64,000 bases of DNA from positions 4,774,001-4,838,000 of the forward strand of contig JAPNXP010000003.1 in the NCBI GenBank assembly GCA_028753945.1. Direction: 5' to 3'. Origin of the DNA: Hexactinellida sp. DTS-2022 (lineage: Eukaryota; Porifera; Hexactinellida). A model generated the notes under the pieces. That model saw only the letters and a list, made by a program, of their open reading frames with translations. It was not told the DNA's origin and made no database searches. The translations under genes were made by a program, and so were the position numbers. How positions within the stretch are numbered: the first letter of the stretch is position 1; the number at the start of each line of letters is the position of its first letter. Positions 2,940-62,307 of this stretch are shown in pieces.

Positions 2940-3700
2940 CATAATATGAATATACGTATAGTATTTATCCATCCAGGCTTTTATCCAGGGAAAAATTCTG
3001 CGCGCCTAGAATGGTTCAGACGCGCCAAATATACAAATTCTGATTAAGTATGGTATAAGAGTATCACTCAATTTTCGCAAGCCTTGAAAAGTTACATTTG
3101 AATTTGACGCGATAGGATTAAACCTTGCTCCATTACATTATAATGTGCTCATAAAAGGGGCCAGAAAATATGAACTGTCTCTTGGTTCTAGCTATATTAA
3201 CTGTTTTATAACTCTATTTAGTAATTTGTAATTACCACGATGTATATAGATACCTAGTGTAAATACGAAAACGGTTAAGTGCTTGGGACCTGTAAATTCC
3301 TTCGTTAAACCCGGATATTCGTCATAAGAGGATAATAAGTAATGCATTTAGTGCTGGAGGAAAATGTCCATTTCGTTATAACCGATTTGGGTATAACGGG
3401 AGTTCACTGTATTAACTTCCTTTCAACCCTTTCCAGTACAAATGACACCGGTTATACGAATTTCGGACATTTTGACGGTCCCTTGGTGTCCGTACTAACT
3501 CGATTATACTATATACAAATAGTGTACCAGTATCAATGAATTATCCAGGAGCGCGAGACGCTCCTTTTGGAGTATGATTTTAGGTCAAATTAATTAGGAG
3601 CGCGAAAATTTGGAATCCTCTCCTATACCGTAACATAATTTGTGATTTAGGCGAATGAAAATTGGATCAGACCAGGATTAGGAGCTATTTACAAACGGCT
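2940..3700. repeat. Cluster of dispersed repeat remnants in CYFIP intron 4
   Basis: Three families lie side by side. Positions 2965-3110 (AGGCTTTTATCCAGG ... GCGCGCCTAGA) match 10938-11060. Positions 3255-3411 carry TTCGTTATAACCG units ending TTCACTGTA, as at 20500-20705, and 3418-3515 resemble 26380-26484. Positions 3541-3690 (GGAGCGCGAGACGCTCC ... GGATTAGGAGCT) resemble 26490-26595. No gene is seen here. Confidence 0.55.
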
Positions 3701-7801: not shown

Positions 7802-7946
7802 TACAAGTAGACTCTGTATAGAGCAAATAAGGTTAATTCCCTAGCCTAACAAATGCATGCAAATGAAATCGGTTAATACAAATTCCGGATAATACGAACA
7901 TAATTCGACGGTCCCCTAGTGTGCATAGTAACGAGAGTCTGCTGTA
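7802..7946. repeat. TACAGT-family element, TTAATACGAATTCCGG subfamily
   Basis: The left end reads TACAAGTAGACTCTG and the right end CGAGAGTCTGCTGTA; inside lie GGTTAATACAAATTCCGG and GACGGTCCCCTAGTGTGC. The same text recurs, diverged, at 26380-26484 and 3418-3515. It lies just 5' of CYFIP. Confidence 0.55.
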
Positions 7947-9235
7947 TTTCTTATATGGATATGCGTTATTTCACTCACATCTATTTGTAGAGTAGGATCG
8001 TAATCTGATATAAACTTACTTACAAACTATAACATTTATTTCTGAGAGGCTCGAGTAATAAACAGAGTGAAGTCTCAAGTTTGACGGCTTAAAACTAGGA
8101 ATCCACAAGCAACTATAGTCATACATTATTAGTCTAGAGGCATAATATAGTTTGAGTAGCGAAAAGTGGAAACACTCCATATAAACTGTCATTTTAGGCG
8201 TCAAATCGACGCACAAGAGATTTAATTAATCCACGATATAAAAGTTACTAAAGTTATAAGTATAAATACAGTTATTCGATGTTAGTCTACTGTATAATTA
8301 CTAGAATTAGTATAAATAATACCTAGAGAGAGTATCTTATTTCCCAATAAGATTATCTTTAAATTATCTCAAGCAATGAGCAGAAACTCAGCTCATTCAG
8401 AGAATCCAACTTTTGGAATGTTCTTACACCTGTGCCCCACTAACTCAGTCATGTTAACGAATAACGTAATTACACAAGTATACTACGGACAATACTTTAA
8501 CGTGCAATCATTAATACAGTCAGGTCTGCTTATTGTGAACAATTTTTCGTTTGCTTAATATGAAGGGATTATGAACAAGCCCTATGGTCCCAATTTAACA
8601 ACTTACATAGGGTTTGGATTAATTAGAGTTCGCATATTTCAAGTCTCTCTATTATGAACACAATTTCAGTATCTTTCATGTTCACAATAAAAGAACCTGA
8701 CTGTATGTGGAAGAGTCTATGGAAGTCAATCAGATTATCACGCCAGCATCGCCTCCGATATTTGCCGGATTCAATTCTGCCTGGGGTGGGGGCATCAATT
8801 TTACAAAAAACTTTGTCTCGGATGACGACAATTTCGTTGGGATTTGAGGACATAAATTATTTAAATAACAAATAATTTGAATCAAATCCTTTTTTGGTGA
8901 GTCCAAAAACTTTAATTTACACTCAACCCTTGAGCTAAATAAGTTTTCCCTCCCAGTAACCCCCATATAGGCCCCTAGCACGTCAGTATATGTAGGGTAT
9001 ATAGAATTGGAGAGTTGATCACAACTATAATGCCAGATAAATTTTACACAAAGCTTGCTAACTGGATTAGTGTTTTAAAGGCATATTAAAGTGTAAATAA
9101 AATACAAAAATTGGTGACCTGTATGCCTGTTAGAAGCTCTCAAAGTGCCAAGAACCGCGAGGATTCTTAAATGTAACAATTAATCCCTAACGCTTCTCCA
9201 CTCAATACAACTACTCTGTAGACAACAGTGCAGCA
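7947..9235. other. Intergenic region with one dispersed repeat
   Basis: No gene is supported. Positions 8560-8705 are an inverted copy of the CTATTATGAACACAA family, ending CTGACTGTA; the same text in the other orientation is at 40578-40720. Short open frames here overlap that repeat or are A+T-rich chance frames. Confidence 0.5.
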
Positions 9236-19606: not shown

Positions 19607-20276
19607 ATGGCATTTCGCAGGATCCTCCACCAGTTCTCGCGTCCCTCCATCTCGAGACTACCCAACGCTAGACCCGTGCTGCAGACCCGCCCCATGAGCT
19701 CCCAGGAAGACAACCCCAGCTTCAGCGGCATGGTCCAGGAGTATCTGAAGAAAGCAGAGGAGTACATCATCAAGGACGAGATTCGAATCACGGGACACTC
19801 CCGACAAGAGATCGTCGGACTCCTGGACGCGATACGCGCCTGCAACCACGTGCTTAACGTCACCTTCCCGCTCCGTCGAGACGACGGCTCCATCATCAGC
19901 ATCGAGGGGTGGCGCGCGCAGCACAGCCAGCACAAGACCCCCTGCAAGGGCGGCTGCAGGTTCAGCGAGGACGTCAGTGAGGACGAGGTGAAGGCGCTGG
20001 CAACGCTAATGACCTATAAGAATGCAACCGTGGACGTGCCGTACGGAGGCGCGAAGGCGGGAGTGAAGATAAACCCCCGCAAGTTCTCGGTGGGAGAGCT
20101 GGAGAGGCTGACTCGACGCTTCGCGATAGAACTGTCCAAGAAGGGGTTCCTGGGTCCCGGCATCGATGTCCCTGCCCCCGACATGGGCACTGGGGAGCGA
20201 GAGATGGCTTGGATCGCCGACACCTACGCCCACACCACTGGGCACCTCGACATAAACGCACATGCCTGTGTTACCG
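19607..20276 (+). CDS. GLUD: Glutamate dehydrogenase copy A, exon 1 (mitochondrial)
   Basis: GDH (EC 1.4.1.3) interconverts glutamate with 2-oxoglutarate and ammonia in the mitochondrial matrix. The exon starts [18 protein letters not shown], an Arg-rich presequence, and continues through the N-terminal substrate domain: [12 protein letters not shown], the [12 protein letters not shown] lysine region, [17 protein letters not shown] and [12 protein letters not shown]. The donor GTGAGT begins at 20277 and splits a glycine codon. With exon 2 (20752-21659) it codes for 525 residues; human GLUD1 has 558. Exon 1 is almost identical in DNA to copy B (27801-28470), yet the sequence upstream of ATG is unrelated. 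Confidence 0.96.
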
Positions 20277-20499
20277 GTGAGTTGCTATAATAATATTTGT
20301 TCCATTAGCCTGTCACTTCAAACTCTATTTTTCAGAGTAAAATTTCCGATAATTAAATTTCGATATATCACATGACCATATTTGGAAGAATTTTTCCCAT
20401 AGCAACGTTGGAATGTATCAGGAATGTGTCAAAATACTCTGGTAGCTGTATGGAGTCGAAAGAGGGTCACTTGATTGGGCAAGGACACAATTTGAGAAG

Positions 20500-20705
20500 C
20501 ACTTTTATAACAAGAGTTTATTCAACAAACTACAATAAACTCTTGTAAAAGTGCTTGGGACCTGTGAATTAATTCGTTATATCCGGATATTCGTTATAAG
20601 CGGATGATAATTAATTAATACATTTTGAGGTCTGGGGGAAAAATTCCATTTCGTTATAAGCGGGTATTTCGTTAGATCCGACTTCGTTATAACGGGAATT
20701 CACTG
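20500..20705. repeat. TTCGTTATAA-family repeat in GDH-A intron
   Basis: AAGTGCTTGGGACCTG followed by TTCGTTATA-type units and ending TATAACGGGAATTCACTG, matching 3255-3411. It takes up much of the 475-bp intron and is absent from the intron of copy B. Confidence 0.6.
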
Positions 20706-20751
20706 AAACTATTATTTTTCAATTAATTAAACTACTCTCTCCACTGACTAG

Positions 20752-21659
20752 GTAAGCCGATCAGTCAGGGAGGTATCCACGGCCGCACTCAGGCCACAGG
20801 TCTCGGGCTGTTCTACGCCGCTAAGAACTTCATACAAGATCCCGAGTACATGTCTGCTATCAACTCGGTGCCGGGGTTCGACGGCAAGAGCTTCATAGTG
20901 CAGGGGTTCGGTAACGTGGGCTACCACATAGCGCACTACCTGCACAAGGCCGGCTGCAAGCTGGTGGGCGTGATGGAGTTCGACGGGTCGGTCTACAACC
21001 CGGAGGGGATGGACCCGGAGGAGATACTGGCCCACAAGAAGAAGAACAGGGGCGTGTCCGGGTACACAGGGGGGGAGTTCCTAGAGGGAGACCTGTTCGA
21101 CAGGGAGTGCGACATCATGGTGCCGTGTGCCACCGAGAAGTCCATACATCTGGGAAACGCCGACACCATCAAAGCCAGGCTGATCTTAGAAGGGGCGAAC
21201 GGGCCGACCACGCCCAAGGCTAACGACCTGCTCCTGTCGAAGAGTGTGCTGATGATACCGGACCTGTACGCCAACGCGGGAGGGGTGACTGTGTCCTACT
21301 TCGAGTGGCTCAAGAACTTGAACCACGTCAGCTTCGGACGCATGACCATGCGCTACGAGCGAGAGACTAACTACGCTCTGCTAGACAGCATTCAGAAGAG
21401 TCTGGAAAACAAGTTCGGCAGCGCTCCAGGCTCTATCCCCATTCAGCCGACCCCGCAGTACCTTATACGCATGTCGGGAGCTGACGAGGAGGCACTCGTG
21501 GAATCTGGGCTCCAATACACCATGGACAGAGCCTCCAATAATATCAAGGAAATTGCGAAGAACGCTGGTCTCGGTCTCGACTTAAGAACGGCCGGTCTGA
21601 TCGGTGCTGTGGAGAAAATCTATAAGATATACTACGAAGCAGGGCTCACTTATATGTAG
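20752..21659 (+). CDS. GLUD: Glutamate dehydrogenase copy A, exon 2
   Basis: The exon begins GKPISQGGIHGRTQATG after acceptor TAG at 20749-20751. It carries the Rossmann NAD(P)-binding region FIVQGFGNVGYHIAHYL, then LEGANGPTTP and DLYANAGGVTVSYFEWLKNL. The animal-type antenna region (FGRMTMRYERETNYALL) is present, and the end is AVEKIYKIYYEAGLTYM. From the exon start to about 21462 the DNA is almost the same as copy B. From 21463 the two diverge sharply: YLIRMSGADEEALVESGLQY here, YLHRITGADEETFVESGLEY in copy B. The copy-A tail has LRTAGLIGAVEK where copy B keeps the more usual LRTAALVHAVEK. The frame is intact, so both copies look functional. Confidence 0.96.
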
Positions 21660-22045
21660 TCTGCTATTCTCTTAGTTCTATTCAGTTCTCTTATTTTATG
21701 CAGTAGCTAATTCACACTTTTTATTCTCACTAATTATAGACTTATAAACGAATATCTAATAGGTTCTTAATTAAATTTTTATTCTAATAACTTTTATATA
21801 AATTTTTTTGAAATTAATTTCCAATGGCTTGGGGATTTTATACCAGGCCCGATGGCCCACTCCTTTATGGCTTTACCTAAAAGGATACCAACACTTCAAT
21901 ACACGAAATGGGTTATATAAATTACTCAACTTATATAATATTCGTATATCGAAATACCAATATTCGGGCCAAAAACCACCGCTCAGTCGCCCACACGAAG
22001 TTATACAAATGGGGACTTATTAAACAAGAAAACTAGCGTTCCTAA

Positions 22046-22205
22046 TACAGTAGATGTCGGATATAACACACCGGTTAGAAGAACATATCGGATATAAGCA
22101 CACTATGTTGGGAAACGGTTGCCATATACCCTGTATAATTTATGTCGGTTATAAGCACATCAAGTGCAGTTCCCGACGATGTGCTTATAACCGTCATCCA
22201 CTGTA
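22046..22205. mobile_element. TACAGT-ended short element (pogo/Tigger-like MITE)
   Basis: 160 bp. The left end TACAGTAGATGTCGGATATAA and the inverted right end (TACAGTGGATGACGGTTATAA) match well. Interior TCGGATATAAGCACA and GTCGGTTATAAGCACA repeat the terminal motif. No coding capacity. Confidence 0.7.
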
Positions 22206-22353
22206 TAGGGAATATGTTTCAAATAATTGCGACACATTTCACTTTATTTGAATTTTTGTTTAAGCTATTCTTGGGCTAATTAATTAATACCACATCTCAA
22301 AACACGAATAAAGCACATCTTATGAATCAAATCGCCGTGTATCGAAATGACTG

Positions 22354-22440
22354 TAGTCAGGTTCTTTTATTATGAACAAAATTGTGTTCATAATAGACTT
22401 CATAATAAGCGATTTCAACTTAATACAAACCGGTAATCGG
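22354..22440. repeat. Partial CTATTATGAACACAA-family element
   Basis: Starts CTGTAGTCAGGTTCTTTTAT, then GTTCATAATAGACTTCATA and ATAAGCGATTTCAACTTAA. It matches the first half of 40578-40720. Confidence 0.6.
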
Positions 22441-24138
22441 AAAATTCATTCATAAGAATTATTCCATTTTTATGAACTTTATATGATCACAAATTTTATA
22501 AAAATATGCTGTATTATATGAGAGAGATTAAAAAGGGTAATATTATGAAAGGTAAAAAGTTTAAAATTGAAAGCTGTACGCTATCCCTCTTAAATAGGAG
22601 AGAGTTTCTCTATTGTCATAATTGCGACAAGACTCAAAATTCTTTCATTTCTCGCCGCATTAAGTTTGATGTTTGGGGGTTTCTCTTGTATCTCTCTTGA
22701 CTAGTATAACTTGCTGTAGAGATTGTTCTCTCTGTAGATGCATTAATAGTTTCAAAAAACCTGGATGATGGCAATTAATTCCTGATGTGAACGCATTATG
22801 CCATCCTTCTATTGGTTGTTGGTTCTTGCTAATTTAGAGGAGACTCGATGACGCATATTCCATATCCTTATTGGAAAAGGTGCTACTCTTAGGCTCTGAT
22901 CAGGAAGTCTTTGACCAATGTAATTGACTTCGAAATATTTTAGCGATTTATATTGCTGAATCTGGAAAATCTACATCAATAATTCAATATAAAAAAAATC
23001 AATCACATAAATTTCTAGGACGAACGAAAGGGTTGATATGTTTCAATCCCACTTGCCAATATCCATCTAGTACTCGCTTCAGGATTAGTCGCTCGAGCCT
23101 TCATTTTAGTGACGCCTTTAATCATTTCAATTCTGGACGTATTTGGCCCATGCGTACGATACGAATGTAAGTTTACGACATTCGCATCATTTGTAGATAT
23201 GCGTGCTTTACAGGTTGCACGGTTTTCGCAAACCCAATGTGATAATTGTGGGGAGCATTTATTAAGAATACAGTGCAGTATATATAAATAAACCCTTCAA
23301 TGCAAGCCTTCTACTTATTTTACTCGTCTTGAGTAATTCACTTTTGAAAGGTGTAGCCATGTAAATATTACGAACAAAGAGTTATTTAATATAGCAATTT
23401 GTTCACAAGTATTTATATAAATCGATCATAAAATATTTAAATCTTATAAGTATAGGATGTCCCGATAACAGTTTGTAATTATGAATTCAAAACAGTTCTT
23501 AAAATGGATTTAATCTGGTTTCGGGTCGATGTGATCTAGTAATAACAACCAAATGAACAAATATACTTCTCTCAAGTCAATGGAATAAATATCCTAAGAA
23601 AAAACGTCTGACTACGAAATGTCCAGGCGACAATGTCCGCCATTCATACAAACCATATGCAAGTTGTCAAATTGAGACCATAGGGCAATTTTCATAAGTA
23701 TATTAAAACATCCGGATTACTTGGGGTCAAAGGTATAAATAGAAAAAAAACATTTTCATTTTCACTTTCAATTGAAATTCAATTAACTTTCAGTTTCAAT
23801 TTCACATTCCAGGGAATCCGCGAGTTAAGCAGACGAAGTCGTTCACAATGAGCAGATCCCTAATTGGATACTTTGCTTTTAAATAGAGACATTCATTCTG
23901 CAAACTGTACTTTTTTCTTGTAGAGGAATTAAATAATCCTAGGTCTCCCATTGTAAAATAAATTGAAATGCAAAAAGTGAACTAATTAAAATGCAAGTGA
24001 AACACAACAACCAAATCTAACAGTATGTACCTAAAGAGGAATTGAACTAAGCTAAGATAAATATTGTAAAAAAGAATTGGCAGTATACAGGGCCTAGAAA
24101 AACAGTTTACGGATTACTCTAGGATGGAATTGAGTATG

Positions 24139-25046
24139 TTACATATAAGTGAGTCCTGCTTCAGTGTATATCCTGTATATCTTCTCCACAGCGTGCACGA
24201 GAGCAGCTGTTCTCAGGTCGATGCCCAGACCAGATTCCTTAGCTTTCTTCTTTATATTAGTAGACGCTCTGTCCATGGTGTATTCCAGTCCTGATTCTAC
24301 GAATGTCTCTTCGTCTGCACCGGTTATTCTATGTAGGTACTGCGGGGTCGGCTGAATGGGGATAGAGCCAGGGGCGCTGCCGAACTTGTTTTCCAGACTC
24401 TTCTGAATGCTGTCTAGCAGAGCGTAGTTAGTCTCTCGCTCGTAGCGCATGGTCATGCGTCCGAAGCTGACGTGGTTCAAGTTCTTGAGCCACTCGAAGT
24501 AGGACACAGTCACCCCTCCCGCGTTGGCGTACAGGTCCGGTATCATCAGCACACTCTTCGACAGGAGCAGGTCGTTAGCCTTGGGCGTGGTCGGCCCGTT
24601 CGCCCCTTCTAAGATCAGCCTGGCTTTGATGGTGTCGGCGTTTCCCAGATGTATGGACTTCTCGGTGGCACACGGCACCATGATGTCGCACTCCCTGTCG
24701 AACAGGTCTCCCTCTAGGAACTCCCCCCCTGTGTACCCGGACACGCCCCTGTTCTTCTTCTTGTGGGCCAGTATCTCCTCCGGGTCCATCCCCTCCGGGT
24801 TGTAGACCGACCCGTCGAACTCCATCACGCCCACCAGCTTGCAGCCGGCCTTGTGCAGGTAGTGCGCTATGTGGTAGCCCACGTTACCGAACCCCTGCAC
24901 TATGAAGCTCTTGCCGTCGAACCCCGGCACCGAGTTGATGGCAGACATGTACTCGGGATCTTGTATGAAGTTCTTAGCGGCGTAGAACAGCCCGAGACCT
25001 GTGGCCTGAGTGCGGCCGTGGATACCTCCCTGACTGATCGGCTTAC
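24139..25046 (-). CDS. GLUD: Glutamate dehydrogenase copy B, exon 2
   Basis: This exon has the same length (908 nt) and splice position as copy A. The acceptor TAG precedes 25046 and the last ~30 intron bases also match copy A. The segment antisense to codons at 24524-24805 translates identically to its copy-A counterpart (20993-21274) even in the antisense frame, showing near-identity at silent sites. Identity stops at 24334, and the last ~66 codons differ at roughly a third of residues, ending YRIYTEAGLTYM. The tail keeps LRTAALVHAVEK, close to the animal consensus LDLRTAAYVNAIEK. Frame intact. Confidence 0.96.
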
Positions 25047-25100
25047 CTAGTCAGTGGAGAGAGTAGTTTAATTAATAAATTAATTAATAATGGTATAATA

Positions 25101-25722
25101 CAGTGGTTCCCAACCTTTTTTTAACTCGTGAACCCCCTGATACCCGAAAATTTGGTGGTGCACCCCCAGGACATACCTAAGTCTGAAGGATTCTATTGAC
25201 AAGGACATCTATTATAAAAACAGGATGGGGGTGAACATGATATGGTCTCATTAGGATGAAAAGCGTCAGTATGTAATAATATCACAAGGTTAATCTAAGT
25301 ATACATGGATTTATAGACGAGCGAGCGCAGCGAGCGAGAAAGATTTTCTGGGGTGAAGAGGATTTTCAAATATCATTGAGTATTACTAACAATTTATTAC
25401 AACAATATTTTGCTGATTTTAGGGAGGATAAAATTATGAGGTGCACCGATATTGGGGGGGGGCGAATGCCCAAAGGTAGGTGTGGTAAATGGACCAGTAC
25501 GGGCCAGGCCCTCTATGAAAAAGCGTCGGGTAACTTACAGAACACAATAGTAATAAATCAATATAGTCGAGTAATCAGAATTTAACTTATAGATTATAAC
25601 TATCATATTTTAACAAGCTTTATTTTAAAATGCTCAATATTCACTCCACTCCTTGTCCCGTGCACCCCCAAGGGGTTCATGCACCCCCAAGGGGTTCATG
25701 CACCCCAGGTTGGGAACCACTG
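25101..25722. mobile_element. Non-autonomous hAT element in GDH-B intron, perfect 8-bp TSD
   Basis: 622 bp with perfect 16-bp inverted ends CAGTGGTTCCCAACCT, flanked on both sides by GTATAATA (25093-25100 and 25723-25730). These ends are typical of Charlie-like hAT elements. Subterminal ACCCCCAAGGGGTTCATGC is repeated. No transposase frame. It helps explain why this intron is 2.75 kb, against 0.48 kb in copy A. Confidence 0.92.
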
Positions 25723-26379
25723 GTATAATAGTATAATATTCAAACAATACAATATCGAATAAATGCAACTTTTGTTTGGATATATTTGATGGAATTGCAG
25801 GCAGAAATAACCAAAAATGCGATACGCTCTTTTGGCGTATGATAAGGGATAACCTATAATGGAACAGGGGTGGGCACAAGAGTTCTGTTTCAGTCTGGAA
25901 AAACTAGGATATATTCTGCTACCATTATACGATTTAAGTCTAGTAAACTTTGAAGATTAATTTAAATCCTTGTTTCTCAGTTATTATAAAAAGCCCTCAC
26001 TACCTAGCACTCAAATAATGTTTTAGAAGTCGGTTATTCAAACAAATAAATTATACCCAACTTAGCGGGAGTATGACCAATCATTGCGAACAATTAATCG
26101 TTGGTGACAAGTGATTATAAACTATTCATTATAGCTAGGTTACAATATATTACAAATTTAGCATCTCTCATGATAACCGCGAACCGAAATTGTTATCTCT
26201 CACGTGATGCGTATTGAACGCACCAGTTATGAGGGATTGATTCTAAAGTGCTTTGTTTAAGTTCAGCCGCCGCATTCACATACTTTTCAAACAACTCTCG
26301 CGGGCCGCAGAAATTTGGCCAGTGGCATGGCCCGCACTTTGCCCACATGTGCACTAGAAACGAACACTAATTCAGTCCC

Positions 26380-26595
26380 TTAAAAACCTTTTCAATACAA
26401 ATGACATTGGTTAATACGAATTCCGGATAAGGTGAACACATTTTGACGGTCCTCTGGTCTTCGTACTAACGAGGTTCTACTGTATTTAGGAGCGATAAAC
26501 TTTGGCAACTCTTATAACAAACATTAATTTGTGGTTTAACTTTAGCCGTATGAATATATGATCTCATCAGGATTAGGAGCTTGTTCCCAAATTGC
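26380..26595. repeat. Two adjoining dispersed repeats in GDH-B intron
   Basis: Positions 26380-26484 (GGTTAATACGAATTCCGG ... CTAACGAGGTTCTACTGTA) match 7802-7946. Positions 26490-26595 (AGGAGCGATAAACTTTGG ... CAGGATTAGGAGCTTG) match 3590-3690. The same two families adjoin in the same order at 3418-3690, so they may be one longer element. Confidence 0.55.
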
Positions 26596-26937
26596 TTTAA
26601 GAACAGAAACTTTGATTAGTTACCTTTGTTGGCTCTATTTGCCTTCAATTGAAGTTCGATTTCGTTTGTTTGTCCGGAATAAATTAAAGAAATATGGAAA
26701 GTGAATTAATTACGTGAATTTGTAGTTCAGATGGTGACTAGATTCCATAATGGTATTGTTTTGATAACAAGTATCTTGTTTAGAAATTCTCCTTTTCACA
26801 TTTCGAATGTGAAAATTTAATGATATTTGTAAAAATTACAAATAAATTAAAACTGCTTAATTAATAAGGAATTGTGAAGCGATAAAAAATGCTTGTAGAA
26901 ATATCCTATGACAGAATATTGTCCCATGGATGTTAAG

Positions 26938-27449
26938 TAGGGCATTAGGATCGAACGATCAAAGATCGCGCGATCACGATCGCGATCCTTTTTTGACGAT
27001 CGACGCAGGATCGTCGATCGTATTTTACAAAACGATCGAAATGGAGATCGCGATCATTTTTTAGCATAAATTTTCGATCCTACATTCCGATCTTTTAGAA
27101 AAGGTTGCCCAATTAATTTCATTCACCAAACCATCTAATTTGTTTAACACTTATGTATTTAATTTGAATACGATTATTAATTCAATTTATCCATAAAACA
27201 GGCCCGTAACAATAAAATATTTTTCAGGTTGTTGAAAATCTAACTTCACTGTTTCTAAAAGTTGGTCAAGTTGAAACCTGAGCATCCTGAATAGTTACTA
27301 CGGCAAATAAGAAATGATCGCAAAAATGATCGGGATCGGATCGGCGATCATTTAAAAAAATGCGATCGGGATCGAGATCGCGATACTATTTTAAGTGAAG
27401 ATCGCGATCCGATCCCGATCCAATTTTTTGGCGATCGACTAATGCCCTA
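26938..27449. mobile_element. GATCG-rich hAT-like element in GDH-B intron, perfect 8-bp TSD
   Basis: 512 bp with perfect 11-bp inverted ends TAGGGCATTAG, flanked by ATGTTAAG on both sides (26930-26937 and 27450-27457). About the outer 120 bp on each side consist largely of overlapping CGATC/GATCG motifs, for example AGATCGCGATC. The middle is A+T-rich and non-coding. hAT-like by its 8-bp duplication. Confidence 0.88.
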
Positions 27450-27800
27450 ATGTTAAGTTAGGTAAACAAGTAACAGTGCTGCATGCTGGACTATCAATGC
27501 GCTAGTAATAAGGATTCTGAAGCTGAAACTGATCCCTCATGTCAGGGAGGAATAGAGCTGCTTAAATGGCAAAATGACAATTTTTTGCGAAAATATGACT
27601 GTAAAGTGGAACTTAAGATTTCGTATTACTAATAAATATATCAGGTAAACAATTACTCATATTGGATGTATACTAGAAGTACGTAGTAAGAATTAGACAA
27701 GTTGCTTTTGCAACTTAAAATAGATTTGTTTACACCCAAAATTAATGATATCAACTCATCACGTGGTGACTCGGGATTACGTATTATTATAGCAACTCAC

Positions 27801-28470
27801 CTGTAACACAGGCATGTGCGTTTATGTCGAGGTGCCCAGTGGTGTGGGCGTAGGTGTCGGCGATCCAAGCCATCTCTCGCTCCCCAGTGCCCATGTCGGG
27901 GGCAGGGACATCGATGCCGGGACCCAGGAACCCCTTCTTGGACAGTTCTATGGCGAAGCGTCGAGTCAGCCTCTCCAGCTCTCCCACCGAGAACTTGCGG
28001 GGGTTTATCTTCACTCCCGCCTTCGCGCCTCCGTACGGCACGTCCACGGTTGCATTCTTGTAGGTCATTAGCGTTGCCAGCGCCTTCACCTCGTCCTCAC
28101 TGACGTCCTCGCTGAACCTGCAGCCGCCCTTGCAGGGGGTCTTGTGCTGGCTGTGCTGCGCGCGCCACCCCTCGATGCTGATGATGGAGCCGTCGTCTCG
28201 ACGGAGCGGGAAGGTGACGTTAAGCACGTGGTTGCAGGCGCGTATCGCGTCCAGGAGTCCGACGATCTCTTGTCGGGAGTGTCCCGTGATTCGAATCTCG
28301 TCCTTGATGATGTACTCCTCTGCTTTCTTCAGATACTCCTGGACCATGCCGCTGAAGCTGGGGTTGTCTTCCTGGGAGCTCATGGGGCGGGTCTGCAGCA
28401 CGGGTCTAGCGTTGGGTAGTCTCGAGATGGAGGGACGCGAGAACTGGTGGAGGATTCTGCGAAATGTCAT
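27801..28470 (-). CDS. GLUD: Glutamate dehydrogenase copy B, exon 1 (mitochondrial)
   Basis: The exon is 670 nt, as in copy A, with presequence [18 protein letters not shown] and the same catalytic regions ([33 protein letters not shown]). It differs from copy A at only a few bases: two within the first 15 nt, one in the Tyr codon of TLMTYKNA, one in RFAIELSKK and the final splice-site triplet. Identity continues 19 bases into the intron (GTGAGTTGCTATAATAATA) and then stops. Upstream of the ATG the two genes share nothing I can see. The role is as for copy A. The gene runs toward copy A. Confidence 0.96.
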
Positions 28471-32229: not shown

Positions 32230-32970
32230 ATTCAATTGTTGTTGTTTGTTTGTTTGTCCGGATTGTATTAAAGTGGTGGGGAAATACAAACCGGATATAC
32301 TATAATTGAAATGAGAGAATAACTTCCAAATTGTATTATAAGTAAACAAGTATGCTGAGATTGCTGACCACGAATTTCGCAATTAAAAATTTAGAATATG
32401 AATATTTATTGTTGTTGTTTACAAAATTGGTAAACAAATTAATTAAATTCAAAGTGAACGTAGAGGCTAGCTTCCAACGGGTATTATATGTAAACAAGTA
32501 TGCTGATTACGAATACAATTTTTAAAATTTTTAAAGTAAGTATATACTGTATAATGAAAAAAGCGAGACCGAAAGGCTCGTAAGTAATAAGTTATGAGAC
32601 TTATACGTAAAACATAATTCCCCAAACAAATTATAGTGTTACATTAAATCACGACCCAGAATGTACTATTAGTTATAAATGGTAAATTGAGGAAAGTAAC
32701 GCCGCGAAATGCTCTATAATCTTAGCCACACAGATACGAACGAACTAAGGCCACAACTTCATGAGGAGTATATATTAAACATAACAGGGATTTATACTTC
32801 TAAACAATTGGTTTCATGGCGTAGTAAGGCCGCGCAGAGGCCGTTAATTAAGGCGAGAAAAGAAACGCCGAACCGTTGCAAAGCGACCGAGACCAAAGGG
32901 TTGTTAGGGGTTGTTATAAAATTATGAATAATTACCCCTTAATAAATACGAATGAACAACAACAGCAACA
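32230..32970. repeat. TTGTTG-bounded element carrying hairpins and monomers of the 139-bp repeat
   Basis: It starts TTGTTGTTGTTTGTTTG with TTTGTCCGGATTGTATTAAA and ends AACAACAACAGCAACAAC. Inside are two diverged monomers of the tandem unit found at 49401-50545 (GTAAACAAGTATGCTGA ... TTGTTGTTGTTTACA ... AGGCTAGCTTCCAACGGGTA). After these come small hairpins: 32569-32585, 32828-32842, 32852-32869 and 32875-32887. The copy at about 49275-50705 has the same order with an expanded array. No convincing protein. Confidence 0.6.
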
Positions 32971-46991: not shown

Positions 46992-47247
46992 AGTTTGTAG
47001 CTCCTAGACTATGCACTGTTATATTATAGCGTGTTCTCTGCATATTCATTAAGAAAGAGATTTACAGAAGTTGGGAATCGCTGCTCTGTACGAATTTAAT
47101 AGTACACTCAATGGAACTCAATTAAATACATAAATACAGAAGGGAATGCGATAATGACAATGTATGTATGTTAGGAATATTTACTCCGGTTAATATTGTT
47201 TGTTGAAATAACATCAGAATAATAATTCTATAAAAACATTCTATATA

Positions 47248-47403
47248 CAGTAGAACCTCGTTAATACGTATACCAAGGAACCGTTAAAACGTGTACTCAT
47301 CCGTAATTCGTATAAACCGGTGTTATTTGTACTAAAGATGCTTTGAAGAGAACTGAAATAGTTTACGTATTAACCGAAAATTCGCATTCGTATTAACACT
47401 GTA
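47248..47403. mobile_element. TACAGT-ended element, CGTTAATACG subfamily
   Basis: It begins TACAGTAGAACCTCGTTAAT and ends CGTATTAACACTGTA, with GTATTAAC and CGTATAAACCGG inside. It resembles 1631-1809. It lies in cyclin intron 3, 5' of RNase T2. Confidence 0.6.
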
Positions 47404-49400: not shown

Positions 49401-50545
49401 ACAAATGTTATAATAGGTAAACAAGTATGCTGATTTCGAATTTCGCGTTTATAAATTTATACACGTAATATGAATATTTGTTGTTGTTGTTTACACAAAA
49501 TAGGTAAACAAATTAATGGAAATTCAAAATCAACCTAGAAGTTAGCTTTCAACGAGTATTAAGGATAAACAGGTATGCTAAACACGAATTTCGGGTTTAA
49601 AAATGTATAATATTAATATTTGTTGTTGTTTACACAAAATAGGTAAACAAATTAATGAAAATTCAAAATCAACCTAGATGTTAGCTTTCAACGGGTATTA
49701 TAGGTAAACAGGTATGCTAAACACGAATTTCGGGTTTAAAAATGTATAATATTAATATTTGTTGTTGTTTACACAAAATAGGTAAACAAATTAATGAAAA
49801 TTCAAAATCAACCTAGATGTTAGCTTTCAACGGGTATTATAGGTATACAGGTATGCAAAACACGAATTTCGGGTTTAAAAATTTCTAATATGAATATTTG
49901 TTGTTGTTTACACAAAATAGGTAAACAAATTAATGAAAATTCAAAATCGACCTAGAAGTTAGCTTCCAACGGGTATTATAGGTAAACAAGTATGCTGATT
50001 TCGAATTTCGCGTTTATAAATTTATACACGTAATATGAATATTTGTTGTTGTTGTTTACACAAAATAGGTAAACAAATTAATGGAAATTCAAAATCAACC
50101 TAGAAGTTAGCTTTCAACGAGTATTAAGGATAAACAGGTATGCTAAACACGAATTTCGGGTTTAAAAATGTATAATATTAATATTTGTTGTTGTTTACAC
50201 AAAATAGGTAAACAAATTAATGAAAATTCAAAATCAACCTAGATGTTAGCTTTCAACGGGTATTATAGGTAAACAGGTATGCTAAACACGAATTTCGGGT
50301 TTAAAAATGTATAATATTAATATTTGTTGTTGTTTACACAAAATAGGTAAACAAATTAATGAAAATTCAAAATCAACCTAGATGTTAGCTTTCAACGGGT
50401 ATTATAGGTATACAGGTATGCAAAACACGAATTTCGGGTTTAAAAATTTCTAATATGAATATTTGTTGTTGTTTACACAAAATAGGTAAACAAATTAATG
50501 AAAATTCAAAATCGACCTAGAAGTTAGCTTCTGACGGGTATTATT
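49401..50545. repeat. Higher-order tandem repeat: 139-bp monomers in a duplicated 565-bp block
   Basis: The anchor TTACACAAAATAGG recurs at 49491, 49630, 49769, 49908, 50056, 50195, 50334 and 50473. Steps are 139, 139, 139, 148, 139, 139, 139. The four-monomer pattern repeats as a block of exactly 565 bp, with monomer-specific variants kept in order (CTGATTTCGAATTTCGCG; ATTAAGGATAAACAGG; GGTATACAGGTATGCAAAAC). It lies in cyclin intron 2. Isolated diverged monomers occur at 32330-32540. Confidence 0.95.
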
Positions 50546-50626
50546 GGTAAACAAGTTAAAACTATGGAAAATGGTTGTATATAACGTCCCTTCTACCATT
50601 TTCCATGGCAGAAAGGGTGAGGAGTA

Positions 50627-57671: not shown

Positions 57672-59798
57672 ATGCAAGTAGCATCAGCAATAATACTATT
57701 ATTTGTTGCGGTATACAGTCTCAGCGCAGAAGATGGAATAGCGCGCTTCAACACGAGGAATGTTCGGGGGTATATCAGATTCACTCAACTCGACAATGGA
57801 ACCGTAGAGATTCGCACAAACTTCGTGAGCCTACCTTTCAGCACTGCGCTCCCATACCACGTGCACAACTTCCCGGTAGACTACCGCTATGACCCAGCTG
57901 AGAGGTGCGGGGCCGCGTACACAGGGGGACACTTCGATCCAACCGGGAGGAAACTAGGTTCGATGGGTCGGTACTCCGAATATTGCAGCCAGTCAAACAG
58001 AACTGGATGCGAAGAAGGGGATTTGAGCGGGAAATTCGGTAGGCTAATGAATGGCACAAACACTTTCTGGGATGACAACTTGAGTACAAGTGGGCGTAAC
58101 GGGATACTGTTCAGATCGATCGTTATTCATAGGGTGGAAGGGAGCTCGACACCAAGATACGCTTGCGCCACAATAGAGCCTACAACAAGTCTAGCATCGA
58201 CAATAGCCGCGAGGGCAGCATTTTACGGGAACTTAATTAGCGGGAATATATATTTCTTCCAACGATCACCCTCTGCTTCATCAGTCCAAATATTCATCAG
58301 CCTTAGCACTGTAAACACCGAGAGAGACCTGACCGGGTTAGCTTGGAATGTGCGGCAGAGCGCTCCAGGCGTAAGGAGCCGTCTGGGGTTCTGTGGGAAT
58401 GTGGCCGAGTTCTACAACCCAAGAGGACGGGTACTTGCCAATTGCGACTCCGCGCGACAAGACATGTGTCCGGAATATGCCCTCACAGAGAAACACGGCT
58501 ACCTTAAAGTGACCAGTGAAGGGAACAAGTTCTTCTTCGCCGAATCGGGTAGCATTACCCTCTATGGAGGGGATTCCATCATAGGCAGGTCATTAATCAT
58601 TAAAGAAGGGAGTCGAGTAATCGCATGCGCTGCTATCGGGGCTGTGAGTCCGATTAAACTGAGGGCAGTTCTATCGAACGGATTCGAGATATCCGCCACT
58701 CAGTACTTCCCATTCAGCGCCACACGTCTGAGCACATCTGGAAGCAGGATGTCCCTGACGCGCCTAGAACTCCAGGACACTGGCTACATAAGTGGCGTGT
58801 GTGACGGCTCAGAATCTCGCTACAACCCTTTTGTGAACAACGCAGAAGCGACTGGCGAGAGAACGCCGGACTCAGATCGCCTCGGAGACCTGCTGCAGCA
58901 GATACCGAGCGAGGGGGCGACCAGCGACTCGTCTCCGTTTCCGCTGTCCGGCCCGTTCTCAGCGGCCGAGAGAACAATCTGGTACCAAATGGGGACCAAC
59001 ACAGGATGCGCGAACTTCGGATACAATCTGGATGGCCGCACTGACAATGCATTCGTGCTCCGAGCCTACGCCTCCTTCCAGAGTGTAGGCTTTACTTGCA
59101 TGGTGCACTTCGCCCAGCTGGTCACCGGGACCACCTACCGCCCCACGGCTGCAATAAGTCCGCCCAATCCTAACTTCCAGTCTGGTGACGTCATAGTAAC
59201 AGACAGGTGTACGAACGCGACAAGCAGACAGTACAGGTTTCTCACCGCCTCCGACAGCCGCTTCTACAACCCGTATATGATAACGAGACAGGCGAATAAC
59301 AGGACCCGCTATGACGCAGAATGTATCAGACTGCGGCAGCGCAGATGCACTGTGGGAAACAACCTATTGCAGTCAGCCAGCGATGTTTCGAGAAGCTATG
59401 TCAATACTAACTTGGAGTTAGCAGGCGAATTTGGTGTAGCGACGAGTGGGATAAGAGTTGAGTTGAACGGAATATACTCCGCGACTGTGCAGGCAAATAA
59501 TCAGATGAGCGCTACTTATTACGTAGAGAACTGCCAACAGTTAAACGATAGGCTCCAAAATGGGATAAATACCTGTGCGGGAGTTGAGCCTAATACCTTT
59601 TTGCCCATCATGTGTTCAGATGCCGACATTAATGCTGATAACAACACGGTTAGTGTGACTGTAGACATGGTGTTCGCGCCGGGGACCAATGCAGAGACGG
59701 CACAGGCATGTCTGCTGGCAAGCATCAACTCTGGCAACAAGCTAGCAGCGCCGATAGCTTCTGTTCTGATAGTTGCAATGCTACTTCTGCTAGTGTAA
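57672..59798 (+). CDS. Multi-repeat Cu-only superoxide dismutase-like protein 1
   Basis: Cu-only SODs dismute superoxide outside the cell without zinc. The 708-residue frame has a signal peptide (1-~18), four SOD-like repeats (about 22-175, 175-330, 330-490, 490-650) and a hydrophobic end (ASVLIVAMLLLLV) suiting GPI or membrane anchoring. Repeat 1 keeps all four copper His: H63 and H65 (PYHVHNFPVD), H87 (GGHFDP) and H153 (RSIVIH). It also keeps GCEEGDLSGKFGRL and the cysteine in YACATI. The zinc-loop histidines are absent. Repeats 2-4 keep the scaffold (IIGRSLIIKEG, CAAIG, SRYNPF) but lack these His, so only repeat 1 can bind copper. Many N-x-S/T sites. The architecture fits animal copper-only SOD-repeat proteins (CSRP). 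Confidence 0.88.
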   Translation: MQVASAIILLFVAVYSLSAEDGIARFNTRNVRGYIRFTQLDNGTVEIRTNFVSLPFSTALPYHVHNFPVDYRYDPAERCGAAYTGGHFDPTGRKLGSMGRYSEYCSQSNRTGCEEGDLSGKFGRLMNGTNTFWDDNLSTSGRNGILFRSIVIHRVEGSSTPRYACATIEPTTSLASTIAARAAFYGNLISGNIYFFQRSPSASSVQIFISLSTVNTERDLTGLAWNVRQSAPGVRSRLGFCGNVAEFYNPRGRVLANCDSARQDMCPEYALTEKHGYLKVTSEGNKFFFAESGSITLYGGDSIIGRSLIIKEGSRVIACAAIGAVSPIKLRAVLSNGFEISATQYFPFSATRLSTSGSRMSLTRLELQDTGYISGVCDGSESRYNPFVNNAEATGERTPDSDRLGDLLQQIPSEGATSDSSPFPLSGPFSAAERTIWYQMGTNTGCANFGYNLDGRTDNAFVLRAYASFQSVGFTCMVHFAQLVTGTTYRPTAAISPPNPNFQSGDVIVTDRCTNATSRQYRFLTASDSRFYNPYMITRQANNRTRYDAECIRLRQRRCTVGNNLLQSASDVSRSYVNTNLELAGEFGVATSGIRVELNGIYSATVQANNQMSATYYVENCQQLNDRLQNGINTCAGVEPNTFLPIMCSDADINADNNTVSVTVDMVFAPGTNAETAQACLLASINSGNKLAAPIASVLIVAMLLLLV

Positions 59799-60222: not shown

Positions 60223-62307
60223 ATGATTCAATTTCTAACTTTCATTGTCGTTCTGACCTTCTTCCAGTCGGCCCTAGGAGCTGAACACATAAAGAGAGCA
60301 TATGCGGATTTCAACGGTAAGGGAATCAAAGGCAGAATCACGTTCACAGATAGCGGAGATGACACCGTACAAATCGAGACTAATTTCCCCTCATTTGTTT
60401 CTCTCCCTGCTCTCTACCATGTCCACATCTGGCCTGTGGACTACACGCTAGATCCTGATAGGAGGTGCGCTGCCACTTACGTATGTCAACACTACGATCC
60501 ATGGGGCAAGAAAGCTGAGCACGGAGCTAATTACAGTACTATGTGTGCAGCTAACAAAAGCGAATGTGAAGTGGGAGATCTGGCAGGCAAGTTTGGCAGT
60601 TTATACCAAGGAGTAAGGAATTTGGTTGACAGCTACGGGTTGTCTCTTCGCAACACTCGAAGCATTTTATTTCGCTCTATCGTGATACACCACCCAGGGG
60701 GAACTAGGTACACCTGCGCGACCATAATGCCCGATACAACTAACGAGATTATAACTGCTAGAGCGAGATTCAACGGGCCAATTATCGGAGGATCGATTTA
60801 TTTCTTCCAGGAAAAACCAACAGCAAGAGACGTTACAATATTCGTTGATTTGTTCCTAACGAATTCTGGCTGGGATTTGTCTAATAACATTTGGGAGATC
60901 AATGGGTATCCTACCGGAACAGACGGCAGGAAGGGAGAGTGCGGAAGATTAGGAGACAGCGCCCTTGTCACACTGAACGATAGGCACGGGAGACTAACCT
61001 TCAAGAATACCAATTCTGTGAACAAAGCTTTCTTTACCCAATACAATGGGATAAAGTTGTACGGACCAAATAAGATAATGGGGCGTTCGATCAGAATAAA
61101 ATCTAGCACTGGCACTGTACTGGCTTGCGCTACCATAATGGAGAGCAGGGCCATACGAGCAGCAGCGGTATTCAGCGAGTACAGAATAGAAGCTTTGCGG
61201 TATTCCCGTTTCCTGCCTACACATATCAGACATGTCGGGCATTCCTTTGCGATTACAAACCAGCTGCTACACACGGAGGGGTATTTCGGAAGTCGCGCTT
61301 GTAACAGTTCTTTGGAAACTTACTCGCCATTTTCTATATTTGTACCCAGTGGTCTCAACGACACACAGGACACGAGTGAGATCGGAGACTTGGGCAGCTC
61401 GCTAGCCGCTGGGTGGGTGTGGCACCATGCCCTCCCCCTCTCGGGCTCCTACTCCACCATAGGAAGGACAGTCTCGATTCGGAGAGGCGGGGCTTGGGAG
61501 TGCGCCGACTGGCAGGACGACTTCTCCCAGCGAGACGACAACTCGTACATCTACAGAGCGCGAGCGGGGTTCTCAAACGGGGCCTGCTGGGTTTGGTTCA
61601 ATCAGAGAGTTTCCTCGACTCGCTACGAACCTGATTCAGAGCCACGGACTAGCTTACCTGACTTCGACACTGGAGATGTGACACTGTTCGACTACTGTCC
61701 TTGGGGGAGCGCCACCCGCCAGTACACAATACAGACCCGCGCCACTCTCTCCGGCGACAGCTCTAGATACAACCCCTATTGGGCCAGACGGGAGTCCGAC
61801 AATACAACTGAGTATCTCCGAGATTGCAACAACTACAGAGTGGAGAGATGCGAGGTAGGGGACCTGTACCGTCTCAACCTGGACGCCGCGAGATGGACCG
61901 GTATTCACACCAACCTGGAGCTGCTCGGGGAGTTCGGGGCTAGCTACCGAATTATAGAAATGACAGACTCAGCTGATGCCGGGGTGAGAGAGACAGATTT
62001 TATCCTCCCTGTCTACGGAGCTCCTTTCTCAGTTTGTGTCGGTAGCTGCAACGAAGCTATGCTTAGAGCCAACGAGCTGCAGAACCCGCATAGACTGGCC
62101 AGCGTCGCCTGTGGGAACAGTGTACTAAACGCTTGCGAGGCTGACGAGTACGAGGTGAGCGGAGTCGCTACTGGCGGCAATAGTGCTGAAGCCCTGGCGA
62201 ACGCTAACAGCTTCGTGGCAATCTACTCGGGAGCGGGATACCAGTTCCAAGCCACTTTTATATTTATCCTTCTATCCCTGGTCCTACTCTCACTACTCTC
62301 ATACTAA
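60223..62307 (+). CDS. Multi-repeat Cu-only superoxide dismutase-like protein 2
   Basis: A 694-residue tandem paralogue of the gene at 57672. It starts with a signal peptide (MIQFLTFIVVLTFFQSALGA) and ends in a hydrophobic stretch (FIFILLSLVLLSLL), so it is probably anchored at the cell surface. Repeat 1 keeps copper His H66 and H68 (LYHVHIWPVD), H90 (CQHYDP) and H156 (RSIVIHH), with CEVGDLAGKFGSL and TCATIMP. Repeat 2 (GRSIRIKSSTG, ACATIM), repeat 3 (GRTVSIRRGG, CADW) and repeat 4 (SSRYNPYWARR, CEVGDLY) keep the frame of the fold without the His set. The two proteins are clearly diverged, so the duplication is not recent. Confidence 0.88.
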   Translation: MIQFLTFIVVLTFFQSALGAEHIKRAYADFNGKGIKGRITFTDSGDDTVQIETNFPSFVSLPALYHVHIWPVDYTLDPDRRCAATYVCQHYDPWGKKAEHGANYSTMCAANKSECEVGDLAGKFGSLYQGVRNLVDSYGLSLRNTRSILFRSIVIHHPGGTRYTCATIMPDTTNEIITARARFNGPIIGGSIYFFQEKPTARDVTIFVDLFLTNSGWDLSNNIWEINGYPTGTDGRKGECGRLGDSALVTLNDRHGRLTFKNTNSVNKAFFTQYNGIKLYGPNKIMGRSIRIKSSTGTVLACATIMESRAIRAAAVFSEYRIEALRYSRFLPTHIRHVGHSFAITNQLLHTEGYFGSRACNSSLETYSPFSIFVPSGLNDTQDTSEIGDLGSSLAAGWVWHHALPLSGSYSTIGRTVSIRRGGAWECADWQDDFSQRDDNSYIYRARAGFSNGACWVWFNQRVSSTRYEPDSEPRTSLPDFDTGDVTLFDYCPWGSATRQYTIQTRATLSGDSSRYNPYWARRESDNTTEYLRDCNNYRVERCEVGDLYRLNLDAARWTGIHTNLELLGEFGASYRIIEMTDSADAGVRETDFILPVYGAPFSVCVGSCNEAMLRANELQNPHRLASVACGNSVLNACEADEYEVSGVATGGNSAEALANANSFVAIYSGAGYQFQATFIFILLSLVLLSLLSY

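Follow-up and report, generated by a model that had tools for sequence, protein, structure and literature searches.

How can two neighbouring genes be nearly identical through most of their coding sequence, silent sites included, when their flanks, their intron interiors and the end of the same reading frame are not? The question is raised by two glutamate dehydrogenase (GDH) genes, A and B, in a 64-kb stretch of DNA (the window).

Two intact, convergent GDH genes

As a sequence-only reading of the window had proposed, both genes are intact and face each other: translation of the joined coding sequences gives two complete, convergent open frames of 525 aa each, A at 19607-21659 on the forward strand and B at 28470-24139 on the reverse strand. 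Exon 1 of A (19607-20276, +) holds 223 codons and the first base of codon 224, with splice sites read from the sequence and a GTGAGT donor at 20277, and exon 2 runs through the stop codon (20752-21659, +); in B, the joined translation places exon 1 at 27801-28470 (-) and exon 2 through the stop at 24139-25046 (-). The introns are 475 bp in A and 2754 bp in B. For exon 2 of A there is a gap-free alignment to residues 205-504 of PDB chain 1l1f_A ('Glutamate Dehydrogenase 1'; E 2.7e-110) that covers the antenna and the C-terminal helices, and exon 1 of both copies was compared only with a diverged GDH gene on C18. Judged by sequence match A and B are glutamate dehydrogenases of the animal GLUD1 type, and the putative location of the enzymes is probably mitochondrial.

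Identity is confined to two blocks with sharp edges

The two genes were compared base by base, followed by self-BLAST of the window. The first homogenised block extends from exactly the ATG to intron base 19 (A 19607-20295, +; B 27782-28470, -) with 5 differences in 689 bp, and bears out the claim that exon 1 differs at few bases and that identity continues only 19 bases into the intron. The second, with 3 differences in 742 bp, takes in the final 30 bases of the intron and runs on as far as the second position of codon 461 (A 20722-21463, +; B 24335-25076, -). For this exon the sequence-only reading had placed the start about 30 bases inside the intron and the end in A at 21463, both of which stand, and the end in B at 24334, which is the first mismatch, the last identical base being 24335. 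Each tract reaches a few bases into the intron and stops in 9 bp composed only of A and T, ATAATAATA on one side and ATTAATTAA on the other.

Differences in the coding sequence are distributed very unevenly: the initial 1383 nt contain 9 and the final 195 nt contain 53 (Fisher p = 6e-42). The ninth falls at the third position of codon 461 and hence on the first base beyond the tract. The longest identical coding run is 566 nt, whereas placing the 62 differences at random 20,000 times gave runs of at most 341. Over codons 1-461, Ks is 0.024 and Ka 0.001, and 460 of the 461 core residues are identical, the sole change being at residue 2. Silent sites had been said to be conserved, the antisense frame at 20993-21274 equalling that at 24524-24805 of B, and there are indeed zero differences between this segment and its partner. 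The profile of identity and silent divergence across the pair, which had been suggested as a check, is stepped and not smooth.

Beyond the step lie the tails, which run from the third position of codon 461 through codon 525 to the stop (A 21464-21659, +; B 24139-24334, -). Both are open, but Ks over codons 462-525 is about 1.2 and Ka 0.18 (Ka/Ks ~0.15), and 47 of 64 residues are identical; the 17 that differ (27%) are fewer than the third of the last 66 residues estimated previously. The intron interiors (A 20296-20721, +; B 25077-27781, -) are unrelated to each other by BLAST, and in the 5' flank (1 kb), the 3' flank (1.24 kb) and these interiors we saw only short chance matches besides the common intron ends of 19 bp (E 2.5e-5) and 30 bp (E 2.7e-11), in agreement with the view that upstream regions and intron interiors are unrelated.

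Gene conversion as the probable origin of the mosaic

Purifying selection on the protein is ruled out as an explanation, since silent sites are near-identical too, and a chromosomal palindrome is likewise ruled out, the inverted identity consisting of the two coding blocks and 19 and 30 bp of intron only. Silent sites are near-identical within a bounded tract and diverged outside it (Ks 0.024 and 1.2, with the step at 21463), and sequence outside the tracts is diverged, without similarity beyond chance, which argues against a recent duplication. We have high confidence that interlocus (ectopic) gene conversion between old paralogs made the mosaic, much as the sequence-only reading had argued when it found selection on the protein insufficient. 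Conversion is favoured because it is the only explanation considered that fits the near-zero exon Ks, the saturated tail Ks, the common intron ends and the unrelated interiors together. One observation counts against it: an edge exactly at the ATG is not predicted by conversion alone unless homology stopped there.

The history that we envisage begins with A and B as old duplicates, the introns and flanks of which would first have diverged beyond recognition. DNA of one copy would then have overwritten the other over exon 1 and most of exon 2, either as two tracts or as a single tract skipping the non-homologous intron. The tracts may have stopped in the A/T-only 9 bp where homology or microhomology gave out, perhaps with annealing at the microhomology, and the last 195 coding nt would have escaped and so would keep a record of the older divergence.

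That the tracts are almost limited to exons would also suit an overwriting templated by spliced mRNA or cDNA from one of the copies. However, the exact 19 and 30 intron bases common to both copies at the splice sites are impossible from a spliced template, and both copies keep the intron, so that we give this route next to no credence. Common intron ends beside unrelated interiors suggest a genomic donor.

High-copy repeats sit in both introns, which could favour a recent whole-gene duplication, after which transposable elements would have taken over the intron interiors and flanks and tail would have changed fast; the common intron ends total 49 bp, a plausible minimal intron. For the repeat in A (20531-20705) the listing gives another 41 matches, all but one at 82-88% (the best 40 of 1945 candidates scored); this repeat presumably resembles a small pogo/Tigger-type element. 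The B intron contains an element at 25101-25722, which we take to be hAT-like, with inverted ends CAGTGGTTCCCAACC and an 8-bp duplication GTATAATA at 25093-25100 and 25723-25730; its genomic copies are 87-93% alike among the matches listed (best 40 of 3035 candidates). A second high-copy repeat in this intron (26938-27449) has copies at 92-96% among the matches listed, and a third, shorter one (26360-26489) is 72-80% alike to window positions 47241-47368, 7857-7949 and 3411-3514. If the duplication were recent, the intron left after subtraction of recognised repeats, roughly 250 bp for A and 1450 bp for B, should align closely and does not, although more of it may be repeat, recognition having used best-scored matches only. 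A target duplication around the whole insert was not seen by eye in A or B, and a tail Ks of 1.2 with Ka/Ks of 0.15 is unlike recent change. We consider such a duplication very unlikely.

A diverged third GDH gene

In a family search and in DNA searches with each exon as query, the only GDH genes to appear in the genome were A, B and the diverged C18 gene; no third near-identical GDH that could have been the donor was seen. At the DNA level C18 matches the exons of A and B in pieces, at 69-83%. Its core protein is identical at 267/446 residues (60%) to A and to B alike, and its tail at 33/63 or 31/63 to the two copies. With regard to a possible retrogene origin, all three C18 introns are absent from A and B, and the single A/B intron is absent from C18.

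Kinase clusters and control loci

Four kinase clusters likewise have a stepped profile: one lay in a 200-kb stretch selected for its position, and the other three came from groups selected for the closeness of their copies. The examination covered 19 kinase ORFs. The position-chosen stretch supplied the pair C12:4652814+/4660176-, with a 934 bp tract containing 4 differences. A second C12 group and the C11, C15, C3 and C1 groups were taken for close spacing from 132 kinase matches (127 of 419 candidates scored). In C12:4727758-/4734417+ there are 12 differences in 420 nt inside the tract and 284 in 537 outside, and in C11:14200299+/14206132- silent differences amount to 50.6 in 56 sites over the first 100 alignment columns and 7 in 139 afterwards. 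The step was seen in the C15 cluster with four of its five members taken and three of their six pairs profiled; the fifth member, outside the profiled set, is 84% alike over 376 bp in a DNA search. A DNA search with one member per cluster found no near-identical copy outside that member's own cluster.

The sequence-only reading had specified conversion between inverted copies. Conversion holds for the GDH pair, but inverted order seems not to be required, and a restriction to inverted copies was not upheld: the direct C15 pairs 3640192/3643284 and 3640192/3648807 are also stepped, with silent differences of 10.0/50 and 9.0/51 in codons 1-75 and of 6/131 each in codons 76-275. The step is milder here, C15 pairs among reverse-strand copies having about 0.2 silent differences per site in codons 1-75 and about 0.05 in codons 76-275. 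C15 3640192/3643284 have 151 bp of 5' flank in common, at 74%.

Not all neighbours show a step, and a general rule is ruled out by pairs without one. The proteins of the adjacent kinase pairs C12:4718658/4727758, 4660176/4672404 and 4672404/4694553 are only 33-45% alike, the C3 kinase pair gave no match above 40%, and two C1 kinase pairs are alike over their whole shared length, without a step. Within the window, two Cu/Zn SOD-like genes in direct orientation have proteins 37% alike and no DNA match by self-BLAST. PF00106 gave 21 matches. In the 200-kb control, other inverted blocks were considered from 96% identity and 300 bp upwards. Among those listed, 72238-72619/95093-95472 has element-like ends, 142083-142408/142765-143090 lies outside the listed ORFs, and one copy of 134924-135291/136637-137005 overlaps ORF 135633-136949.

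The similar pattern at other loci also bears on whether assembly or polishing made two distinct loci look alike. Eight scattered differences, intron-internal edges, two intact frames and unrelated flanks argue against this as well, and polishing does not usually mix copies about 70% alike; we regard it as exceedingly improbable. An assembly artefact of any kind is unlikely at the GDH pair, the sequence of which is known from the assembly alone.

Base composition of the tracts

In the GDH core, GC at third positions is 0.80, as opposed to 0.58 in the tail of A and 0.45 in that of B, a contrast that persists when stratified by amino acid (p = 0.00065 for A; 0/20,000 for B), and third-position GC is higher inside the tract in all five clusters (GDH and four kinase). 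This suggests recurrent GC-biased conversion, in which case conversion would have been repeated over time with a bias towards GC. The argument is weakened by three observations. Some ORFs without a known tract have significant N-terminal GC dips (C12:4644642, p 0.008; C12:4698054, p 0.022). C12:4687778, 4698054 and 4644642, which were labelled as 'kinase ORF' controls, are absent from the kinase match list. Fourfold sites of A alone give p 0.08, and the eight residual block differences are unbiased, with G/C only in A at 3, only in B at 3, in both at 1 and in neither at 1.

The C-terminal tail

In addition to conversion, selection may keep the tails apart, conversions that reach the C-terminal segment being removed for different allosteric needs of A and B, so that the tail would be an island of divergence; we offer this tentatively. 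In human numbering the tail begins at the equivalent of residue 442, adjoining Arg443, its Ka/Ks is ~0.15, and the 17 differing residues of 64 include the equivalents of human 445, 470 and 498. Substitutions assigned to the human GDH2 lineage include R443S, G456A, N498S and R470H (PMC10812971). However, the Arg443 and Gly456 equivalents are the same in A and B, and a neutral end effect is enough: homology runs out with the stop codon, and unconverted ends also occur in the kinase clusters, the outcome expected if the end effect were purely mechanical. A regulatory difference between A and B through the tail is possible on these residue comparisons.

Known systems and implications

The closest precedent is GOT1Sd/GOT1Sr of the copepod Tigriopus californicus, metabolic-enzyme paralogs like the GDH pair, in which conversion is largely exon-restricted beside a mostly unalignable intron of 761 and 2723 bp (PMC3728101). 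As in A and B, divergence islands persist inside a converted exon of GOT1p1/GOT1p2; unlike the GDH pair, GOT1 has population data showing ongoing conversion, and GOT1Sd is frameshifted in three of four populations, unlike A and B, which are both intact (PMC3728101). Caenorhabditis col-12/col-13 and hsp16 modules are similarly near-identical with diverged flanks, and conversion there is reported in inverted and direct orientation, with introns in 15% of detectable events; the col-12/col-13 identity takes in an intron, unlike the GDH interiors (PMC3966223). Mammalian BMP8A/B, DDX19A/B and TUBG1/2 are old pairs likewise kept alike segment by segment by conversion, in a study that demanded a conserved intron, whereas the GDH intron interiors are unrelated (PMC2720389). 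Primate X-chromosome palindromes also combine inverted-copy conversion with raised GC, but homogenise large arms and not only coding blocks with short intron ends (PMC8981503). Human GLUD1 and GLUD2 are two GDH paralogs with, as in A and B, part of their differences C-terminal; GLUD2 is an intronless retrocopy, and A and B each have an intron (PMC5192433 and PMC10812971).

A wider proposition, which we think may hold but doubt, is that this genome puts local paralogs through recurrent GC-biased conversion limited to coding cores, giving proteins that are mosaics of a homogenised catalytic middle and ends free to diverge, and a GDH pair differing only at residue 2 and in a possibly allosteric tail. 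If true, coding-core conversion would let paralogs retain a common enzyme core while their ends evolve apart. If several clusters have coding-limited tracts and raised GC, the genome would suit measurement of ectopic-conversion tract ends, orientation effects and GC bias, and silent-site dating of duplications in it would mislead. The GDH locus itself is a clean natural experiment, in which two enzymes agree at every residue but residue 2 as far as a sharp boundary and differ in the C-terminal segment beyond it, with unrelated upstream sequence.

Stepped identity between two convergent GDH genes

Two glutamate dehydrogenase (GDH) genes, each encoding 525 aa, face each other in the window, copy A on the + strand (exons 19607–20276 and 20752–21659) and copy B on the − strand (exons 28470–27801 and 25046–24139), with their stop codons 2479 bp apart. 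PDB chain 1l1f_A ('Glutamate Dehydrogenase 1', taken to be the human enzyme) matches exon 2 of A gap-free across 300 residues (E 2.7e-110). The source genome comprises 112.4 Mb in 18 contigs, the window being C12:4774001–4838000. Window ORFs match families such as AMMECR1, a ZIP transporter and LDL-receptor domains, and these matches, together with the presence of spliced genes, suggest an animal.

A and B are near-identical in two blocks, one from the ATG to intron base 19 (5 differing bases in 689 bp) and one from the last 30 intron bases to position 21463 of A (3 in 742 bp). The core (codons 1–461) carries eight silent differences and one replacement difference (Ks 0.024, Ka 0.001), whereas the tail (codons 462–525) has a Ks of about 1.2 and a Ka of 0.18; the abrupt edges and conserved silent sites described in a sequence-only reading are thus borne out. 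BLAST comparison of the sequence outside the blocks (intron interiors plus 5′ and 3′ flanks) gave only short chance matches, in agreement with the earlier statement that upstream regions and intron interiors are unrelated. The longest identical run in the coding sequences is 566 nt, and when the 62 differences in total were placed randomly in 20,000 runs, none reached this length (maximum 341).

Probable gene conversion and the A and B introns

Judging from the divergence of the tail (17 of 64 residues), A and B are old copies. At the same rate about 120 core residues would be expected to differ, and one does; conversion between the two copies most probably accounts for this. A simple recent duplication is excluded by the unrelated intron interiors, and a spliced template for the conversion by the intron ends common to both genes. 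At each intron-internal tract end lie 9 bp made up solely of A and T (ATAATAATA and ATTAATTAA), a composition that would be compatible with annealing at microhomology.

The A intron contains a high-copy repeat of about 175 bp, and the B intron contains high-copy repeats of about 512 bp and about 622 bp, the latter carrying an 8-bp duplication, and an additional shorter repeat of about 130 bp. Outside these repeats, which were recognised among the matches listed, about 250 bp (A) and about 1450 bp (B) of intron interior are still unalignable, and a further part of this may be repeat.

The sole other GDH gene found in the genome is on contig C18 (C18:1959184–1957036; four exons, and three introns of which none is common to A and B), and DNA searches with each A and B exon matched only A, B and this gene. 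It is identical to each of A and B at 267 of 446 core residues, and in the tail at 33 of 63 (A) and 31 of 63 (B). Its antenna region is 6 residues shorter than in A and B, a difference that possibly alters its allosteric control.

The C-terminal tail and regulation

With residue n of A and B corresponding to human GDH1 residue n−20 (ungapped alignment), the tract ends at human 441/442, adjoining Arg443; the regulatory domain containing this residue is presumably the antenna. A work referenced by PMC5192433 places Arg443, in its title, in the regulatory domain, and PMC5192433 itself has the nucleotide sites linked by the pivot helix. Changes in the human GDH2 lineage are at positions 443, 456, 470 and 498, according to tabulated data in PMC10812971. 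Of these, A and B share Arg443 and Gly456 and differ at 470 and 498; they differ as well at 445, which is Ser in A and Thr in B. That A and B differ in regulation is a fair hypothesis on these sequences, and end effects of conversion would explain the tail boundary with no regulatory difference required.

The same step in kinase clusters

The step, a near-identical stretch inside otherwise diverged paralogs, recurs in several groups of neighbouring paralogs across this genome and is not confined to GDH. A 200-kb control stretch of the same contig (C12), picked by position, yielded a convergent pair identified as kinases by Pfam, C12:4652814–4653815 (+) and C12:4660176–4661174 (−), with 4 differing bases in 934 bp and with both ORF ends and flanks dissimilar. 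Among other kinase clusters, selected by proximity among the 132 matches listed, three further ones have the step; other neighbouring pairs that were compared show none.

In the C11 pair (C11:14200299 and C11:14206132), silent differences fall at 50.6 of 56 sites in alignment columns 1–100 and at 7 of 139 thereafter. The head-to-head pair C12:4727758–4728741 (−) and C12:4734417–4735379 (+) is near-identical in columns 81–220 only (12 differences in 420 nt, against 284 in 537 nt outside), with about half of the sites differing on either side. For the C15 cluster (C15:3630850–3649697), four of five members were fetched and three pairs profiled, and these members share a homogenised middle. Silent differences between C15:3630850 and C15:3640192 number 24 at 49 sites in codons 1–75 and 7 at 131 in codons 76–275, and two direct pairs have a milder step (about 0.2 versus 0.05). 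Inverted order seems unnecessary for the step. In the first 25 codons, the two profiled − strand pairs have 15–16 replacement versus 2 silent changes, an excess that may reflect diversifying selection.

When a single representative of each of the four kinase clusters was searched as DNA, all matches came from its own cluster, including a C11 relative 68% alike over its length and the fifth C15 member, 84% alike across 376 bp. Single open frames account for many of the 132 listed kinase matches, and some of them are grouped locally in mixed orientation (such as C15:3.63–3.67 Mb, C11:14.20–14.21 Mb and C12:4.65–4.74 Mb); kinase genes whose domain lacks introns seem to be abundant in this genome.

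Other repeats and pairs are also present. A long array at C12:4516000–4554000 consists mostly of direct repeats, with many matches of about 1.2 kb that are roughly 68–99% alike, and an inverted 369-bp block (C12:4634924–4635291 and C12:4636637–4637005; 96.5%) has one copy overlapping a 438-codon ORF. Within the window, two neighbouring ORFs in direct orientation, each about 700 aa long (57672–59798 and 60223–62307), have an N-terminal Cu/Zn SOD domain and 37% protein identity, and direct tandem repeats at 49409–50556 have more relatives around 32243–32534.

Base composition of the tracts

Third-position GC falls from 0.80 in the GDH core to 0.58 (A) or 0.45 (B) in the tails; stratified by amino acid, the core–tail comparison gives p = 0.00065 for A and 0 of 20,000 for B. 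Of 28 ORFs with 250 or more codons from the window and the 200-kb control, only the two GDH ORFs have a GC fall of at least 0.22 over the last 64 codons, and the C18 gene has no such drop (0.63 then 0.72). All ten tract-assigned kinases, which represent four clusters and not ten independent cases, have higher third-position GC in the tract than in the remainder of their own gene. The same test was significant at 0.05 for none of five step-less kinases (the C3 pair, C12:4672404, C12:4694553 and C12:4718658).

Recurrent GC-biased conversion is a plausible cause of the raised tract GC; since one conversion is hardly enough for such GC, conversion would have recurred in the same segment if GC bias is the cause. 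Counting against GC bias, two other ORFs with no known tract have significant N-terminal GC dips, and fourfold sites of A alone give a core–tail p of 0.08. The eight differences that are left within the GDH blocks show no bias either way, with G/C only in A at three and only in B at three.

Precedents and significance

Titles and partial abstracts on gene conversion, glutamate dehydrogenase and paralogs included no report of GDH conversion. The nearest parallel comes from the GOT1 genes of a copepod (PMC3728101), in which conversion in one pair is largely exon-confined and adjoins an intron of 761 versus 2723 bp. Caenorhabditis pairs with diverged flanks have long been known in both orientations (PMC3966223). 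Conversion between paralogs is thus already known, and the GDH pair is a clear further case; the main interest lies in the frequency of the step across this genome and in its GC signature.
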